This document shows, one piece after another, positions 1 to 58,142 of a DNA stretch of 64,000 nt (position 1 is its first letter; the number at the start of each line of letters is the position of its first letter). The stretch spans positions 29,660,001 to 29,724,000 of the forward strand of contig NC_053400.1 of NCBI RefSeq assembly GCF_016859285.1. Direction: 5' to 3'. This DNA comes from Xiphias gladius. Lineage: Eukaryota; Chordata; Actinopteri; Istiophoriformes; Xiphiidae. The notes below the pieces were generated by a model. The model was not told the origin of the DNA. It worked only from the letters and a program-made list of their open reading frames with translations, and ran no database searches. The position numbers and the translations under genes were made by a program.

Positions 1-620
1 CTGCTTGGAGATTGCAAAAAAAAAAGCACCTAAGGGACTCTCAGACTGAGAAACAAGATTCTCTGGTCTGATGAAACCAAGATTGAACTGTTTGGTCTCA
101 ATCCTAAGCATCATGTCTGGAGGAAACCAGGTACCGCTCATCACCTGCCTAATACCATCCCAACGGTGAACATGGTGGTAACAGCATCATCTGTGGGGGT
201 TGTTTTTCAGCCGCAGGGACAGGGAGACTGGTCAGGGTTGAGGGAAAGCGGAACGGAGCAAAATACAGAGATATCCTTAATCAAAACCTGGTGCAGAGCG
301 TTCAGGACCTCAGACTGGGCCGATGATTCACCTTCCAACAGGACAATGGCCCGGAACGCACAGACAAGACAACACAGGTGTAGTTTCCTCAACTCTGTGA
401 ATGTCCTAGAGTGGCCAAGCCAGAGCCCTGACTTGAACCCAATTAAACATCTCTGGAGAAACCGGAAAATGGCAGTCCAACGACAGCCTCCATCTAACCG
501 GAAAGAGTTTGAGAGGATCTGCAGAGAAGAATGGCAGGAAATCCCCAAACCCAAGAGGACTTGAGGCTGTAATCGCTTCCAAAGGTGCTTCAATTAAGAA
601 CAGAGTAAAGGGTCTGAATG
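1..620 (+). pseudogene. Tc1-like DNA transposon, decayed transposase (3' two thirds)
   Basis: Translated in shifting frames, this stretch gives the catalytic core of a Tc1/mariner transposase. The first DDE block reads WSDETKIELFG near 70-95, the second QQDNGPE near 337-357, and the third WPSQSPDLNPIKHLW near 412-455. A typical Tc1 C-terminal end follows, up to about 620. Several frame changes and in-frame stops (for example around 160-175, 330 and 380) separate the blocks, so no functional enzyme is encoded. The N-terminal DNA-binding part and left inverted repeat lie outside the window. Tc1 elements are abundant in teleosts, and this one is an inactive relic. I did not find a convincing right terminal inverted repeat. 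Confidence 0.93.
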
Positions 621-24474: not shown

Positions 24475-27400
24475 TCAAACTATTCCTTCTTGTTCCACTG
24501 GGAGGGCTGAAGGGTCCAGTCCACACTGCTTCATCTGGACAGCGATGTCAAACAAGTAGTCGTAGCATTCGCACCTGCAAAATGAAGCAGTATTTTGAGC
24601 TTTGGAAGAGAAAAATACAATCTAAAGAATTTAAATCCGTTTTCTTTGTTACACATTCCCCCTACACAAATATATTGTTAGTCATAAACAGGATCAAAAA
24701 GGATAATATAGGGCTGGGAGGTAAATGCTCACATGGTCTTGGCTTTTTCCCATGACTCGCCCCAGACATAGACGCCATGTCGACGGACTAGGACTGCACA
24801 CGAATCTGGATATTCATCCATTGCCCGAGCCATCCGGTCCTTTAAATCCTTCTCCTCGGGTGTATTTTCAATAATGGGCACAACCAGACTTTCATCATAC
24901 CTGTGCGTATGCAGGGTACAAAAAGACAAATTACACCCAGGCTGAAAACTATCTGAGGCATTAACTTTAGCCATCAGAGTACTGTCAGATTTAGGCTCTA
25001 CATGCCTGCTCTCAAAGCTTGACTCCACCGTCTACTTTACAGTTCTTCCGATTGGGAGGCAATCAAATCAAAGCAATACAGTGACTGTTATTCAGGCTTA
25101 GTATTGAAACTGGGAAAGTAATTTATCACGCAAAAGAGAATTAGCTGCTATTAGGTGAAAAGAACAAGCAATTTGAAGTTGTCACCTCAGATCCTTTTCA
25201 CATTTTTTTTTTTTGGCCATTTTGTGGACTAAAATTAATCAGAAAAATGAATAATGTGAATAACTATTAGTTGCTGCCCTAATCCAGCAGGTTTCTGACT
25301 GGCTGCCTTATTCCCAGCTGTAAGCAGAAAAAAAGCACAACTACATTTCCTCATTTTATTCAGCTGCATCAATGGGTAACTAACTCACTGTCAAATCTGT
25401 AAAAACTTTAAAATGGTATTCCTATCTGACTTTCCAGTCAATTTGAAATTCTGAACTAAATCTCTTAAATGAAGACTGAGGAAATTTTAAATTATTTCAC
25501 ACAGAACCCGATTATAAGCACAAAAATAAAACTGAATAAAATGTATGAAACATCTTTGTAGGTAATCTGAAGAAAAAAAAAAAAATATCCAGCTACAATG
25601 CCTGTGTTGTACAGATTAACTTCTTAGAGACCCACATGTTTCAGCCTGTAATTTGCATCAGTTGTTGAGAAAATAAGACAAGACGGGGCACATTTATGTA
25701 CGAAGAGATGCCAAGAAAGAGCTGTTCATATAGTCCGGATTTATGTGTAAAGACCAACCGAGCATGATGAAATTGTACTCTTCTTATGGTTAACTACCGT
25801 GATTATGCTTTTCTTAACCCTGATGAAGGCCATAAGCCAACAATGTTGGTTTCCACAGCAAAGCTGGCAGCTGCAATACCAGGCATGCTGGACGTAAAAG
25901 GTGTTCCATGGCAGGTGTGCCACACATTAATTTTGGACAAACTGTTTGATCCTCTACCACTTTATTAAACATTTCTATTATGAAAGCCAAGATACCTCCA
26001 TAACAAAGACTATACAAAGCTCCACTTGACTGAGAAATGAAAATGCTAGGAACCTCTTTGGACTTCACTGATCCTTGCTGCTTGATTAATTACCGATAGT
26101 TGGTGCCTGAGGTGCCCTTACGAATCCCCTTGATCATCTCCTGGTGTGTTATCCTGAACTCTTTGCCAGGATACAGCAGTGTTGCCATGACAGCAGCCTT
26201 GGAGTGGGTGTGTATAACAGCCTGTGCCCCTGTATTTTAGCCAAGGACAAGCAGATTTTGATTTCTGAGTGTTGTCTACTGGTATTGTCTTTCTCTAAAG
26301 GACAACTGTAACAAGACAAAAGAAAGCATGTTGATTTTTAATTGCAATGCTTTTATTAAACAACTGTATCATATGAGTGTATCCTTGTCTTTTTCTATAT
26401 TAAAAAAAAAAATTAATTAAAAAAAAAAAATCAAAATTTTCCTGAAGTTTATGTAAAAGCAATATTTCAATGAACCACCGATTCCAAATGTAAAAACCTA
26501 TATTTTGTGGAAAATAATCTAACACTTTATTTGAGAGTAAATTAATCAAAAGAAAAATCGCATTTCATAAACCACGTGTATTGGAAAAGATGTGTTTCAA
26601 ATGTAGTTGTTGAATAAAATGAGGAACAGAAGGAAACTATTTGTAAACTCACTGATTTTACGATTTTGTTTCCATGGCTATTAACCGCATAATTTCTGAT
26701 GATAAAATGATGTTCCACCGTAAATGAACATAATCACAACAGTCGGGAACATGCATCCAGTTTTTCCATTTCCATTCAGCCTTTCAAACATCTGTATTTA
26801 TATAAAAAGTATTTTGTTTTTCTTTATGCTGTAGTGCACCATGAATTGGACTAGAAAGAGTACTTCAGTGATTAATTAAAAAGATAACTGGTAGTATTCG
26901 GATTACTGATCAGTTCTATCACTCACTGACTTCAAACGATGTTTAGTATGGGCGTTATGTGTATGATTGAACTAGTGACTCACCTCTCATAGTGTAGGCA
27001 TTCATAAAAAGCGGTGTACACTGGCTCTTCTTTAAGTTCTTCCAGGCAGGTGGACAGCTGATGTCCCTCTCCTCCACATCACAGACAAACATGTCTTCTG
27101 GCTGAGTAACACAAATATTGCAAAACAGAAACTTAACACGCTTATCCTTATCTGAATACTGCTAAATCAAATATGAGTCGTCATCTCTATTAAGAAGAAC
27201 AAAGTTTCACACTGTGGCTAGAACTCGCTCACCTGTATTCTCTCCTTCTGGACGCCTGATGGTGCGATGTAGATTTGCTCTCTATGAGTTACAAAACATA
27301 CAACGTGGTAGGTATTAATATCAAGGTAAAGCACAATAACAGTCGTTTTTGGAGGATTTAATCATGACGTAATGGAGAATTCTGCGAATCAAAGTTTTAC

Positions 27401-33310: not shown

Positions 33311-34189
33311 CAGCTCTTTTTTTAGTTAGCTAAGTTACAGTACTCATGTCATACTCCAGCTTCACTTTGTGCCTCATGTATTCCATGCCAAAGCTGTCTT
33401 ATCATCTGAGCCTGTTTGAGTCTAAAATAAAAAATAATCATAAGCTGAGGCTCTAAAAAAAAAAATAGTGAAAAAGAAAAGAATTATATGAAACGTAACA
33501 GTATGATATGGCATATTTAAAGTCACTTTCATCATTCACTTCTGGATGGAAAAGTTTATATTCCACCTCAAATATCGACAGATGTATTGCCTACAGATCA
33601 AGATGACTACAGCCGATGAGCACTGCTCTAAGGAGAAGCCACTTTTTACTTTTTGGTCATGACTTGTTATTGGTGTTTTAGCACGTTGTGTTTTACACAG
33701 ATGAGGCCTGTTAAACTCTGCTGTAGCTGCTCTGAAAATACCATACACGCCAGAGCACATATGTGGAATCAAGTGGCACTCGAGACTGAATTATGCACAT
33801 TTAAATTTCAACAAAAGACCGCATTACGTCCTTTTTTTTCATTAGGTGGATCTATTTCAAGTTATGTTGTTGTCAGTGAGATCATCTGATGTAGTTTGAA
33901 GGTTGGGTTGGAATGAAAACTTTACATTTTATAACAAACTTGCACAGAACAACTGACATCTTTGATTAGACATAAGAAACTCCATTCAATTCAATAAATA
34001 GGCTCAATGTTGCAAACATGTCACTTAAAACTAAAGCATAAAAACTTTTATCGTTTGTTTATCTTGCTCCTTTATAGACAATTGCCATATGTTACATGTG
34101 GCAAACACGCTCACAATGGAAGAAATTGCTTTAGATTTAACCCTAGAAAAGAAGCTAAAATTACAGAAATTAACTTTTTTTGATGGGCA

Positions 34190-42659: not shown

Positions 42660-42667
42660 TATAAAAG
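42660..42667 (+). promoter_or_regulatory. TATA box of the CD44-position gene
   Basis: TATAAAAG lies 106 nt upstream of the ATG at 42,773. Transcription would be expected to start about 25-30 nt downstream, near 42,690, giving an 80-nt leader. A TATA promoter without CpG density points to regulated, tissue-restricted expression. Confidence 0.7.
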
Positions 42668-42772: not shown

Positions 42773-45700
42773 ATGAAGATGAAGAATCATCTTGTGGGGG
42801 TTATTCTTGGACTTCTTGCTGTTGTCCACCCAACACCTGTTAATAGTAAGTTAAAGTCATTTTTATTATTTTATCTGTTTTTACAGTGTAGCTCTTTTAA
42901 ACACTTAAACCAACACTTTCTTTTTTCTGTGTATCTGGTTGATTTTATTAGCCATGTGATTTTGTCTTTGAGAATTGAACTGTAAAATGAAGGTCAAATC
43001 CAGGTGGATATTGATGGTCAATGAAATTCTTTAGCAAAATGACATTCTTCTATATAAATTCTTCTATACAGACCTATGAAATTTCAATAATTCCCATGGG
43101 GTCCTTTTTCTTACCCCGTTAGTTAGCACTTTCCAATCCCTTTTTTGACTACTGAGATTTCCCAAAGCAACAGATTATAGCTTATTATGGTCAGTGGTGG
43201 AAGAAGTACTCAAATCATTTACCAAAGTAAATGTATCCATACCGTAATGTATTTTCATTTTACAAATAAAAGTCAAAAATTTAATATAAAACTTCAGTAA
43301 AAGTACAGAAATATTATCAGCAAAATGTAGTCATTCTCCAGAAGAGTTCTGAATATGAATTTCTATTCATTTTTTGATTATCCAAAAATCTTTGTTTTTT
43401 TTAAATACACAACATGCTTTGAAATATAAAAACCTAATCACTATTAAATTATGATCACACAGGCAGTTAAAAATAAATTTAAATGAGCAAAACACAATGA
43501 ATATTCCCATTCATAATATGATAATGTTAATTGCGTAGTTTGTCCTCTTGCTTCCTCCTCTTTTATGGCACAAAACCCTGTCAATGGCTTCCTTCCAACT
43601 AACTAAGAGAAAGAACAGTCATGGTTTAAACTCACTTTTGACGTAGTTCAAAAAGTTGCTCATAATAAAACTGTTGCTTTGATGAGGCTGCCTCTCTTTT
43701 GTTAATCAGTCATAGACAATTAGTCATCCAGGTTAACCATTACTGAATCTCACCACACCTCATCAAAGAATACCAAAACACAAGTTTATACAAGAATTTT
43801 GGGCGAAGCATGTAGTCTCTTTGTAATGAATCAGACAAAACTTGGTAACTTTCCTTTCCGCTCATGTCAGGGCTGGTAGGTAAACACTTGAGGTGATCTG
43901 TGGGTTTTTCCATTTCTCTTTGTCTTAGCCGTGACCCAGATCCCTACCAAAGCTGAGGATGAAGTTCTCAGAGAGGCCGTGACGGACGGGTTCCTCGTCA
44001 ATGACTTTCTTCTCCCTTCACTCTTATCTGAATCACCCAAAATAAAAACAACCGTTCAGCAGCTGTCCCCTGACTCCGAACCGGAGTCAGCTACAGGGGA
44101 GGCCCCGACGTCCGTGTTCTTCCAGAACACAGGTGACCCCTATGCAACCACAACTCAGAATGTTTCCCATGCTCAGAGCTCTTCCACAGTGTCGTCAAAG
44201 GACAGCGATGACACCAGTTCAGATTCATCTACCACCCAAAACCCTCAGTCTGGCTTTACCTCTTCATCAGAGCCAAAAGAAGCCCAGTCAAGCGTCACCC
44301 CAGATCACGTCTCGGTCTCTCAAACCTCTGACCCTGCCGTGTCCAGCTTTGACCTCCTGAGCACTCTGAGTTCCGATTTAGAGTCTGAAAATGTAGAGGT
44401 GCTAGGTCAGTACCCTGCTACGAGCTTTAGTGTGACCTCCAGCTCCAACACAGAAAGCAGCACTTCATCATTAACCTTCACGCCTTCTCGTATCAGCCAC
44501 AAGGCTCCACGACTGTTTGAAGAAAGTGATGCATCACAATTGACATCAACCGAAGGTAAGACAGAGGAGCTTTCAGTTTCAACTACTACTGAAAAGGCAA
44601 AACAAGTTGTTCAAGTATCCATCAATCCCATGCCTTAATGGCAAATATCCTATACTCCCAATAGTTATTCCTGCAATCACTATTATATTGTCTGTATGGT
44701 TTACCTATGAAGATTTTAAGCCTGTGTTGTTGTGTTCCTCCACAGAGACTAGCACTTCATCATCAACCTCCACGCCTGCTCTTATCAGCCACAAGGCTCC
44801 ACGACTGTTTGAGGAAACCGAGGGGTCAGGATCAACATCAACAGAAGGTCAGTCAGAGGAGCTTTCAGTGTCAACCACTACTGAAGGTGCAAAACAGGAA
44901 ACAAGTTGTTCAAGTATCCATTCACCGCAATCATTAATGGCACATATCAAATACCCCCAATAGTTATTCCTGCAATCACTATTATATTGTCTGTATGGTT
45001 TGCCTATGGAGATTTTAAGCCTGTGTTTGTTATGTCCCTCCACAGAAACTAGCACTTCATCATCAACCTCCACGCCTGCTCTTGTCAGATACAAGGCTCC
45101 ACGACTGTTTGAGGAAACCGAGGGGTCAGGATCAACATCAACAGAAGGTAAGTCAGAGGAGCTTTCACTGTCAACCACTACTGAAAGTGCAAAACAGCAA
45201 AACATGTTGTTCAAATATCCATTGACCCCATTAGTTAATGACAAATATACTCTACCCCCAATAGTTATTCCTGCAATCACTATTATATTTTCTTTATTTT
45301 TTTCCTATGAAGATTTTAAGCCTTTGTTGTTATGTCCCTCCACAGAAACTAGCACCTCATCATCAACATCCACGCCTGCTCTTATCAGCCACAAGGCTCC
45401 ACGACTGTTTGAGGAAACCGAGGGGTCAAGATCAACATCAACAGAAGGTAAGTCAGAGGAGCTTTCACTGTCAACCACTACTGAAAGTGCAAAACAGCAA
45501 AACATGTTGTTCAAGTATCCATTCACCGCAATCTTTAATGGCAAATATCCAATACCACCAATAGTTATTCCTGCAATCACTATTATATTGTCTGTATGGT
45601 TTGCCTATGACGATTTTAAGCCTGTGTTTGTTATGTCCCTCCACAGAAACCAGCACTTCATCATCAACCTCCATGCCTGCTCTTATCAGACACATAGCTC

Positions 45701-46401
45701 CACGAATATTCGTAGAAAATGCTGGAAAAGCTTTACGAGAAGGTAAGTCAGAGGAGCTTTCAGTGTCAACCACTACTGATAAGGCAAAACAGGAAAACAA
45801 GTTGTACAAGTATCCATTCCCCGCAATCATTAATGGCAAATATCCAATACTAGTTCCGCCTGCAATCACTATCATATTTTCTTTCCTTTCATTTTCCTTC
45901 AACCACAAAATGTAGAAGAAACTTTCAATCCTGAATCGCAGCCGAACAAAGGACACAGTACACCAGGTCAGTTCATAAAATTTTTTTAAAAATTAGCCAG
46001 CATGATTAAATTTTGACTAAGACAGTCCATCTTATTAACTCTTACTCTCCAATATCTCCAGGTTGGATCATCATCCTTGCTTTTGTTGTTGGTGTCGCGG
46101 CACTGGTAATGGTCTGCGTTGCCGTCGCTACCAGAAAAAAGTGAGACTTAAAAACTGGGAAAAAAGAACAATAATTCTGACTATAACTTTTCTGAGCACA
46201 GAATTAATTTCTTACTGTTACTTATTGTGCAGGTGGAATGGACCACAACAGGTATCCCAGGTAGAGACCAAAACTGTCTCCCCAGACCAGCAGAGGGAGC
46301 AAGAGATGGAAACATTCCTACACAATGACAAGCCCAAGGAGAACGGAAAGGCAGCAGAGTACACAGTCATCCCTCTGGATGAGTTTCCAGAGAACTATTG
46401 A
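42773..46401 (+). CDS. Mucin-like single-pass membrane protein, CD44-related by position and transmembrane exon
   Basis: Nine coding exons give 466 residues: 42773-42845, 43929-44555, 44746-44847, 45046-45147, 45346-45447, 45647-45742, 45916-45966, 46062-46140, 46233-46401. All junctions are GT-AG and in frame. Exon 1 encodes a signal peptide (MKMKNHLVGVILGLLAVV). Exons 2-7 encode a Ser/Thr/Pro-rich ectodomain with at least one N-glycosylation sequon (NVS), likely heavily O-glycosylated. Exon 8 encodes the membrane span, GWIIILAFVVGVAALVMV, then CVAVATRKK; residue for residue this resembles the human CD44 span (EWLIILA...VCIAV..RR). Exon 9 encodes a 55-residue acidic tail ending DEFPENY, without the basic ERM-binding cluster of CD44. 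Exons 2-7 begin and end in phase 1, as CD44 variant exons do. The neighbour slc1a2, tail to tail, is CD44's neighbour in human. No Link domain is encoded, so hyaluronan binding is not expected. It could be a degenerate CD44 paralogue or an unrelated sialomucin. Confidence 0.85.
43192..43380. repeat. AT-rich dispersed repeat in intron 1
   Basis: It begins 'gtcagtggtggaagaagtac' and continues with 'taaaagtcaaaa', 'cagtaaaagtacagaaatat' and 'cagcaaaatgtagtcatt'. It is the same family as the repeat at 3,567. It occupies part of the only intron in which Link-domain exons could have hidden. Confidence 0.75.
44459..45890 (+). repeat. Tandem array of about 300-bp exon-plus-intron units
   Basis: The last about 97 nt of exon 2 and the whole of exons 3-6 are copies of one another, and so are the introns that follow them. 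Homologous points ('agcac.tcatca') lie at 44,459, 44,751, 45,051, 45,351 and 45,652, a period of 292-301 bp. Each exon copy encodes TSTSSSTSTPALI then HKAPRLFEETEGS then TSTEG. The introns share 'ctttcactgtcaaccactac', 'ccaatagttattcctgcaat' and 'gattttaagcct'. Units 3-5 differ by only a few percent, while the first and last are more diverged, as expected of unequal crossover or gene conversion. Exons 3-6 are 102, 102, 102 and 96 nt and phase 1-1, so each can be skipped without frameshift. Confidence 0.95.
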
Positions 46402-49398
46402 TCACACTGAGGTTCAGAGACAGACCCTCTGGAGGCTTGATACTCATCACAGAAACACAAGACTGTGTTTGGAGCAGATGAGTTTGATCAGAGGAACGTA
46501 ACTGCCAGGGCTGTTGAGCAAAACGTTTCTGTGGACTGTCACAGCTCTGAGCCCATTCTGAACAAGACTCATGGTCCGTTTTTTTACCTGCTGACTTTCA
46601 AAAACTCTTACCACACCTTCACTTTGCAGGTACTGCAATACTTTGGTTTATGTATTTATTTCCGTATCAGCTCTGTCATTAACTGGAAAATACAAACTGG
46701 TTGGGTGAGATGCACAAATGCCATTTATGTGTTTTATTTCCTGGTTTGTCATTGTAAATAATGAATAAGTTTTTTTTTGTTTTTTTTTAACTCGGACCCA
46801 AGAAAAGTTCAGTCCAGTCTTTTTTTCAGTGTCTTTGTTTTAATATAATTTAGATCTGGTTGTAATGATGTTATTGACGACTGTGCTGTGGATTGTAACT
46901 TATATTAAGCCACTCTATTCCCAACATTCAAGATGGAAGCTCTGAGTATTGAACAGTGCTCAGCCCACTAACTCATTAGCTTCTCTTGACAACCTACACA
47001 GCACTTCAGCTGTTGTAAAATGCATTTATTGAATGTTCATATGCTGTATCACATCCGCACTTCTGTGATAAATAAACACAGCGGCAGCTCATCAATAAAC
47101 ATTTATTTGTTTCCATTAATTTTTACAGACAAGTATTAAAACATTTACACATTTTCAGTCCAGTTGTCTGACAAATATTTTTGTGATCTTTTATAGTTTA
47201 TGTAGTATAAGCGCATTCAATCCTGCATGCAATTAGTCAGTCATAGTCAAAAGAAGTTCTGCAATACAATGAAGGTCAGACACAAGAAAAATGTTGAATA
47301 CATTCTTGGACCAAAATGTGCATAGAATCAAAAAGGAAGATAGAAAATATACCCTAAGTGTTATTATCTAAAGATTGTACCAATTCACATGTTCATAGGA
47401 AACACTTACCACACTAGGCCAGATGACTCAGAACATATTCTTATTCAGCTCAAAGACCAATAACAAATGAAATTGATGGAAAAATGATGTAACGAAATAA
47501 TACATAATGGGTTTCGACATAAATCATGGTAGGCTAATAATTCCTGAGGAAGACTCTCTTCCATTTTAGAGGAAGGTGGTGCTTGAGCCAAACACTGGAT
47601 GCCTTGCTGAGGTCCTACAACATGCAGACATACTGTAGCTGCCGACACCAATATTCTCACACACACAAAAACCTGTCTCAGTGTGCTCATAACCCTTCAA
47701 TAACCAAATCTGCAATGAATCAATAACAACATAAACTCATTAAAACAAGTGAAAAATATTGGACTCTCTTCCCTGACAACCATTTGGCGCTCAGTAGTGT
47801 CTCTTAAAAACAGATAAATTGAATGTATTGTTTGTAAATAAATCACCCTAAGTTCACAACCTACTGAGACACCTAGTGGCCCATTAAATGAAAATGATCA
47901 ATGTACTAACATTGTTACATACATATATAGCTATAGTCTTTATAGAAACTTTTAGCATAGCAAAAAACAATTCTGATAGATGACAAAAATGTCAAATTCT
48001 ATACATTTGATTTATACACTTTATCTAAAGAGAGTATATACACAAAGTGCAAGGAGGCACTTTAAATATGAACACATAAGCTGTCGCTTATATGAAAAGA
48101 GAAATAACTAAATTAGTTTTCACCTAGTTTTGAACAGAGTTGTTACACGGACTTAAACTCAAAACATGTACATATTCAGCTAACATCCAATGACCTTGTT
48201 GTTACGGCTTCAGATTTACGTGAGTACTGGAGGCAGAATTTAGTGTGCACTTGCTAAACAGACGTGACCTTAGCTAATTAACTGTACGTGTAATCACAAG
48301 CTTGTTATTCCCATCTAAATCTGCTTTGTAAAAACTAAAATCTGCATACTCTAAGGAAAGTCTTGTGTGGAAGGCCCAGCCGTCCTCACTCAGAGTTAAA
48401 GTAAAGCTGGAAGGTGGAGCTGTTTCATTTCCTCTGCTAAAATGTGAGTCCGGATATTCTATTGAAATGAATAGTAGTAACTTTTGTCCAGAAAATCATA
48501 CTGACTGCACTCTGCAGTTGACATCTTCAAGGCAAGGTTGTCATATAGCAAAGAAATAAACAGTTTGAAATAAAACACAGAGCAATGCACTGGCCCGCTG
48601 AGAGTTTGAGAGACATCACCCCCTTTTCTTTCCTTGTTAATCTTCCTCTCTTTCTCTCAGAAAACACGCATGAACATACAGGCATACTTTTTGACTAGAA
48701 ACAGAAAACGCAGTGCTTCACTCATGAAGAACATATATACAAAAAAATAATAAATAAATAAATAACTGGGAGGGCACCCTTCGCGTCATCTACTGTCTGC
48801 TTTGCGGCTCTCTGCAACATATCCTGTGCTGTTTGTTACTGCATTTAGAGGCCACAACCTCTCCTCTTATGGTCTAAGTCCTAAGCTCTTGCTTCTAAGG
48901 CTTGACCATGTGTGCGACACCCGGGTGTAATCCCATAAATCAAACAGTCAAAGGTAACGCAGTATTTAACCATCTTGCACTTACATCATAACGCCACATG
49001 GAGCACTGTTTCATTCCATTCGTGCTCTGTTTTCTTAAAGCTTGTAGCATCACCAAGTAAGGCCCTGAGTGTGGTCAACTGAGTGTTTTATTCTTCTGAG
49101 CAAAGTGCATGATATGCACCAGTTCATCGCAGTTTGTGTCCAGTTAGTGCAAATGCGAGACCGAATATAAGTTGATGAGTCGTCTGTAGTTTGCTCCAGT
49201 AGACGAAAAAAAAAAAAAAAAAAAGACTGGCCGACTGTTTGTTCTTGCAGTAGGCTACAGTTGACTCTGCTAATGTTCACTTTTTTTTCTTCATTTTGTA
49301 TGTGATTTTTTTTTGGTTTGATGTTTTTTATGGTTGTGTCGGCAGAAAGTAAGAGTTGGTGGAACTCAGGGTAAGGCGCAGCAGCATCTGAATCTGCT
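46402..49398. other. 3' region between two convergent genes
   Basis: The stretch holds the 3' untranslated region of the CD44-position gene, with AATAAA at 47,071-47,076 and 47,094-47,099. From the other side comes the 3' untranslated region of slc1a2: a minus-strand AATAAA at 49,087-49,092, about 310 nt past the stop, and another at 47,102-47,107. If slc1a2 uses the distal signal, the two transcripts would end within a few bases of each other. No further coding sequence was recognised. Confidence 0.55.
47071..47099 (+). terminator. Polyadenylation signals of the CD44-position gene
   Basis: Two AATAAA hexamers, 23 nt apart, lie about 670 nt beyond the stop codon at 46,401. No earlier canonical hexamer is apparent. 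Confidence 0.6.

Positions 49399-58142
<8,744 letters not shown>

Follow-up and report, generated by a model that had tools for sequence, protein, structure and literature searches.

A mucin-type membrane protein gene without Link exons, tail to tail with slc1a2, as a probable CD44 descendant

A nine-exon gene for a predicted mucin-like membrane protein

The window analysed here is a stretch of 64,000 nucleotides (C1:29660001-29724000) from a genome of 690.8 Mb in 1298 contigs, to which contig C8, used for comparison below, also belongs. Nine exons on its plus strand, spanning 42773-46401, were rebuilt from the sequence into an open frame of 466 codons, with GT-AG borders at 8/8 introns and phase 1-1 symmetry of exons 2-7. 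This gene, hereafter the C1 gene, and its neighbours comprise the following features.

24732-24938, minus strand: apip exon, left neighbour, matching methylthioribulose-1-phosphate dehydratase (4m6r, E 1.2e-31)
42660-42667, plus strand: TATA box, 113 nt 5′ of the ATG, by direct reading
42773-42845 (73 nt), plus strand: exon 1, signal peptide MKMKNHLVGVILGLLAVVHPTPVN, read by eye without a predictor
42846-43928 (1,083 bp, without N), plus strand: intron 1, the site of the Link exons in CD44, with no Link remnant detected
43929-44555 (627 nt), plus strand: exon 2, Ser/Thr-rich ectodomain, 36% S+T, one N-glycosylation sequon
44746-44847 (102 nt), plus strand: exon 3, 34-residue Ser/Thr-rich repeat
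45046-45147 (102 nt), plus strand: exon 4, repeat, DNA 96% identical to exon 3
45346-45447 (102 nt), plus strand: exon 5, repeat
45647-45742 (96 nt), plus strand: exon 6, diverged repeat
45916-45966 (51 nt), plus strand: exon 7, membrane-proximal stem
46062-46140 (79 nt), plus strand: exon 8, membrane span, with Cys403, the sole cysteine of the protein
46233-46401 (169 nt with stop), plus strand: exon 9, cytoplasmic tail and stop, homologous in its distal part to the tail of the C8 CD44
47071-47099, plus strand: two AATAAA polyadenylation signals, at 47071 and 47094
53912-54154, minus strand: slc1a2 exon, tail-to-tail neighbour, from the genome search, SDF family (Pfam)
55298-55537, minus strand: slc1a2 exon, from the genome search

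With a signal peptide (by reading), a 361-residue ectodomain in which 134 residues are S or T and which carries one sequon, a single span, one cysteine and a cytoplasmic tail, the product is predicted to be a mucin-like type I membrane protein. A Pfam scan of it returned two families at E≤1, both under the cut-off. The exon rebuild reproduced the anatomy given in a first-pass annotation of this DNA, namely a signal peptide exon, Ser/Thr-rich exons, a 79-nt span exon and phase-1 symmetric exons, together with the 1,083 bp reported for intron 1. Elsewhere in the window, the long frame at 34-564 (plus strand) encodes what we take to be a Tc1-type transposase.

Exons 3-5 repeat in tandem at 94-96% identity within a unit of ~300 bp that takes in the intron, and diverged copies of the same repeat form exon 6 and the 3′ end of exon 2. 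The copies differ at 4-6 of 102 sites among exons 3-5 and at 11-24 of 197-198 sites among introns 3-5 (counts without a significance test), and purifying selection on these exons was not seen in three pairwise comparisons, where 8/12 codon differences were non-synonymous. Intron 4 (45148-45345), whose 198 nt are a multiple of three, is open in the frame of the gene, and its retention would therefore add 66 residues, a hydrophobic stretch among them.

A sister locus with a Link-bearing CD44 on C8

APIP lies on the strand opposite to the C1 gene and slc1a2 on the minus strand to its right, as in the tail-to-tail arrangement described earlier. A genome search with slc1a2 gave 26 matches: after the window exons came a second copy at C8:12426052-12428163 with 84-86% identity, then a further relative on C3 with 72-76% identity, and then more distant matches. 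A pair of Link exons (C8:12442237-12443130) stands ~14 kb from the C8 slc1a2 match, and the locus as a whole contains PDHX and, tail to tail with the second slc1a2, a CD44 whose Link domain is complete. The C8 CD44 was assembled from Link domain, stem, 79-nt span exon and tail; the model begins at the Link domain, and its first exon was not located. Its Link domain covers Pfam positions 1-92 of 92 (E 5.8e-24) and matches CD44 best among structures (1.7e-17, against 3.2e-16 for the best LYVE1), with five CD44 sequences ranking slightly under the best LYVE1. Because this margin is small, the Link domain alone parts CD44 from LYVE1 narrowly, and it is the CD44-type tail and the position that decide, on sequence, that the C8 gene is a CD44. 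The Link-bearing CD44 that the first-pass annotation had proposed to map in the same genome is hence present on C8, and the C1 gene is related to it, as detailed below.

Beyond CD44 on C8 and on the same strand, two joined frames match 6h60, pyruvate dehydrogenase protein X, at 7.4e-47, the next family member reaching only 2.2e-27. With the pieces used, PDHX was not found in the window, and APIP had no convincing match in 47.5 kb of C8. An excerpt of a human deletion table gives the order EHF, APIP, PDHX, CD44, SLC1A2. The position of CD44, with APIP/PDHX on one side and SLC1A2 tail to tail on the other, is found here with APIP on C1 and PDHX on C8, so that the two loci appear to complement each other as halves of a single ancestral neighbourhood. 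LYVE1-like single-Link genes also occur one each at C1:20.0M and C8:27.0M, which fits C1 and C8 as chromosomal duplicates; the C1:20.0M copy best matches LYVE1 structures (9.3e-20, vs 3.3e-15 for CD44), and the C8:27.0M copy was assigned by Pfam only. LYVE1 is the other member of the CD44 receptor group, but these LYVE1-like genes differ from the C1 gene in having a Link domain and in lying elsewhere.

The C8 Link domain (C8:12437500-12447499, minus strand, local 5657-4728) has RH at both RY sites of CD44, where the tyrosines presumably follow the key arginines. Hyaluronan binding may therefore differ even in the copy that has a Link domain. Arg 41/45 are the residues named for the CD44 Link domain in excerpts of the literature.

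The span and distal tail match those of the C8 CD44

Searched against all 690.8 Mb, the C8 CD44 tail found three places at E≤10: itself, window positions 46270-46389 in exon 9 (E 3.8e-4, 48% over 40 residues), the sole significant non-self match, and one place at E 0.5. The reverse search with the C1 span and tail gave, after itself, the C8 tail (5e-4), then the C8 span exon (0.84), and three more places at E 2.0-6.1. Over 32 aligned residues the two tails have a local score of 95, against 24.3±4.5 in shuffles (0/5000 as high), and their DNA is 72% identical over 105 bp (E 8e-11, two-sequence comparison). Across the 57 aligned codons of span and tail, pN was 0.23 and pS 0.74, with 0.20 and 0.65 for the 32 codons of the distal tail and 0.28 and 0.82 for the span; the ratio for span and tail is indicative at most, because synonymous sites are near saturation.

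The C1 span is identical to that of the C8 CD44 at 13/27 residues and to that of human CD44 at 11/27, so the likeness to human CD44 pointed out in the first-pass annotation holds. None of 5000 shuffles reached the alignment score with either sequence, and among 20000 permutations of the 22-residue hydrophobic core the identity was reached in 0.04% for C8 and 0% for human. With the C8 gene as yardstick, the C1 gene has the exon structure of CD44, sharing its 79-nt span exon and phase-1 symmetric stem exons; the human CD44 span exon we also take to be 79 nt. Directly compared with the human tail, the C1 tail was not significantly similar (4595/5000 shuffles reach the score), and the C8 CD44 therefore serves as the bridge to human: its own tail scores 66 against the human CD44 tail (0/5000 shuffles). 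A PDB search with the C8 span and tail returned nothing at E≤1, and the 11 calcium ATPase sequences found with the C1 span and tail (E 0.42-0.85) were taken as chance matches.

No similarity beyond composition was detected between the C1 ectodomain and the C8 stem, 1697/2000 shuffles scoring equally high, and a genome-wide search with the first 83 residues of exon 2 found itself plus one place at E 5.2. The ectodomain may derive from drifted stem exons or from new sequence, and homology to CD44 accordingly rests on the span, the tail, the intron phases and the position. For exons 8-9, the reciprocal tail matches, the shuffles and pN below pS together give good support to homology and long-term coding function, and span and cytoplasmic exons are both homologous to those of the C8 CD44.

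The membrane-proximal part of the tail is missing

The membrane-proximal stretch reads CGKRQTLMIT in C8 and WNGPQQVSQV in C1, versus RRRCGQKKK in human CD44. At the site where the human tail has its FERM-binding clusters and, after them, the ankyrin motif, the C8 tail has a cysteine and CGKRQTLMITKDNG, and the C1 tail has WNGPQQVSQVETKTV. Published excerpts give RRRCGQKKK as the human membrane-proximal sequence and KKKLVIN as the FERM peptide; by reading, neither cluster is apparent in the C1 tail (TRKKWNGPQQVSQV). The distal elements REQEM...ENGK...YTVI are retained. Since the distal part is kept and the membrane-proximal FERM/ankyrin stretch is gone, the tail was cut back on its membrane side and not replaced. 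The earlier proposal of a replaced ERM-binding tail is therefore wrong in that form, the loss being confined to the membrane-proximal ERM/ankyrin stretch and the distal half being conserved (pN and pS above). The C-terminus is ENY in the C1 product, versus KIGV in human CD44.

At 46360-46371 in exon 9, the conserved distal tail reads YTVI in C1 and FTVI in C8. YxxPhi is a tyrosine sorting signal motif, and a gained signal of this type is possible in the C1 tail.

No Link remnant in intron 1 or the window

Genome-wide, Link exons gave at least 52 matches at E≤0.001, and among the matches listed none lies within 2.6 Mb of the C1 gene. Half-domain profiles were made from Link exons of the same genome, 15 for the first half and 14 for the second. 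They recovered CD44 and LYVE1-like exons that had been withheld from them (E 8.5e-8 to 1.7e-14), and the best of 3,419 frames in the window reached E 0.31. The Link domain, which exons 2-3 encode in CD44, was thus found neither in the C1 gene nor in intron 1 nor in the rest of the window, in keeping with the loss of Link exons first proposed from the sequence. A tblastn search with filters off matched window positions 33510-33620 to a LYVE1-like query (E 0.004, 24% of 37 residues), the remaining Link matches in the window being at E 0.31 or worse; this match was rejected as a Link remnant and taken as chance, because no window frame fell under E 0.31 with the Link profiles.

In the portions available of PMC9427754, PMC8139031, PMC12491826, PMC5462776, PMC514892, PMC10605500, PMC10249358, PMC11926218 and PMC9408430, no statement of a fish CD44 without a Link domain was met. 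A Fugu survey, in the part available, names a single CD44 and a single Lyve-1 among the proteins with a Link domain, their orthology being unclear there (PMC514892).

Discussion

The C1 gene is very probably a CD44 descendant that has lost its Link domain, descent and loss both being read in the sequence of one genome. The descent proposed in the first-pass annotation is borne out by the reciprocal tail matches, the span, the 79-nt exon and the duplicated synteny. Like CD44 on C8 and in mammals, the gene stands tail to tail beside slc1a2 and has phase-1 symmetric stem exons, the distal tail and the span cysteine; like the C8 CD44 it has a 79-nt span exon. Unlike CD44, it has no Link domain, no membrane-proximal FERM/ankyrin stretch and no second cysteine, and its Ser/Thr-rich ectodomain cannot be aligned with the C8 stem. 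A large duplication would have left two CD44 copies, on C1 and C8; this was presumably the teleost genome duplication. Gene content and duplicates suggest that the genome is that of a teleost. On this account the C8 copy retained the Link domain and, next to the membrane, a stretch resembling the FERM-binding one of mammalian CD44. The C1 copy would have lost both Link exons and the FERM/ankyrin stretch and retained the CD44 span and distal tail; in its Ser/Thr-rich ectodomain, a 34-residue repeat exon has been duplicated in tandem.

Two readings would deny the gene a conserved role or a CD44 origin. An unrelated mucin gene might have come to lie at the CD44 position by chance, with a span alike through composition, as the unalignable ectodomain and the non-significant match to the human tail would allow; but the reciprocal genome-wide match of the C1 and C8 tails led us to reject it, and with the same span exon length and phases and the duplicated synteny it becomes hardly credible. 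The gene might instead be a CD44 copy in decay, on its way to becoming a pseudogene and with an open frame that is just a leftover, in line with the loss of Link and FERM stretch and with the recently multiplied repeat exons that show no purifying selection. All 466/466 codons are open, however, splice sites are canonical, a TATA box and poly(A) signals are present, and pN is far under pS in span and tail, which makes decay very improbable.

A further alternative accepts the descent and concerns function: the C1 protein could be a natural dominant-negative or tuning partner, associating laterally with the C8 CD44 and limiting its hyaluronan binding and cytoskeletal anchoring. The conserved span (13/27, pN 0.28 vs pS 0.82) is consistent with this, as is the lowered cell aggregation reported in an excerpt on zebrafish when an ectodomain-less Cd44a is expressed together with the full protein. 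Conservation extends to the distal tail, however, suggesting a signalling or sorting role of its own, and we regard this alternative as unlikely.

For a Link-less CD44 descendant, we favour tentatively a mechanism of adhesion. The product would be displayed on the cell as a single-pass sialomucin with O-glycosylation and act by ectodomain contact between cells and by lateral association through the conserved span, neither gripping hyaluronan nor anchoring to ezrin/radixin/moesin. The mucin-type ectodomain would serve adhesion or spacing at the cell surface, and the distal tail signalling or sorting. Without a Link domain, the product is predicted not to bind hyaluronan in the CD44 manner, and without the FERM stretch, not to be anchored by ERM proteins in that manner. 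The leukocyte sialomucins CD43 and PSGL-1 likewise have a signal peptide, a long Ser/Thr-rich ectodomain and a single span, a likeness of the works-like kind only. According to an excerpt of a published table, the radixin FERM domain binds the CD43 and PSGL-1 tails; unlike these, the C1 tail has no evident radixin-FERM-binding motif.

Zebrafish Cd44a is possibly the orthologue of the C1 gene. Excerpts of fish studies report that Astyanax cd44a and slc1a2b have consecutive Ensembl numbers, that zebrafish CD44a (392 aa) branches outside CD44b and tetrapod CD44, and that the zebrafish Cd44a ectodomain makes transfected S2 cells aggregate by homophilic adhesion; they also describe no obvious overlap between the signal of a hyaluronan-binding protein and Cd44a cells, the authors asking for further studies. 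The adjacency, the branching and an adhesion without apparent involvement of hyaluronan all fit such orthology. Somewhat more doubtful than the adhesion mechanism is an extension to teleosts in general, which would share a CD44 without Link domain and FERM stretch, the cd44a class, that separated after the genome duplication. The adhesion, immune and pigment-signalling roles reported for zebrafish Cd44a would then belong to a mucin-type receptor for homophilic adhesion and not to a hyaluronan receptor.

The available parts of fish studies introduce cd44a as a hyaluronan receptor, and the present locus advises caution in assuming hyaluronan biology for every fish cd44 gene. The C1 copy would be a natural separation of the CD44 halves, keeping only the membrane and distal-tail half, and would show which cytoplasmic residues stay under selection when hyaluronan binding and ERM anchoring are absent. 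Membership of the CD44 family need not mean being a hyaluronan receptor, as one of the two copies here appears to have become a mucin-like surface protein.
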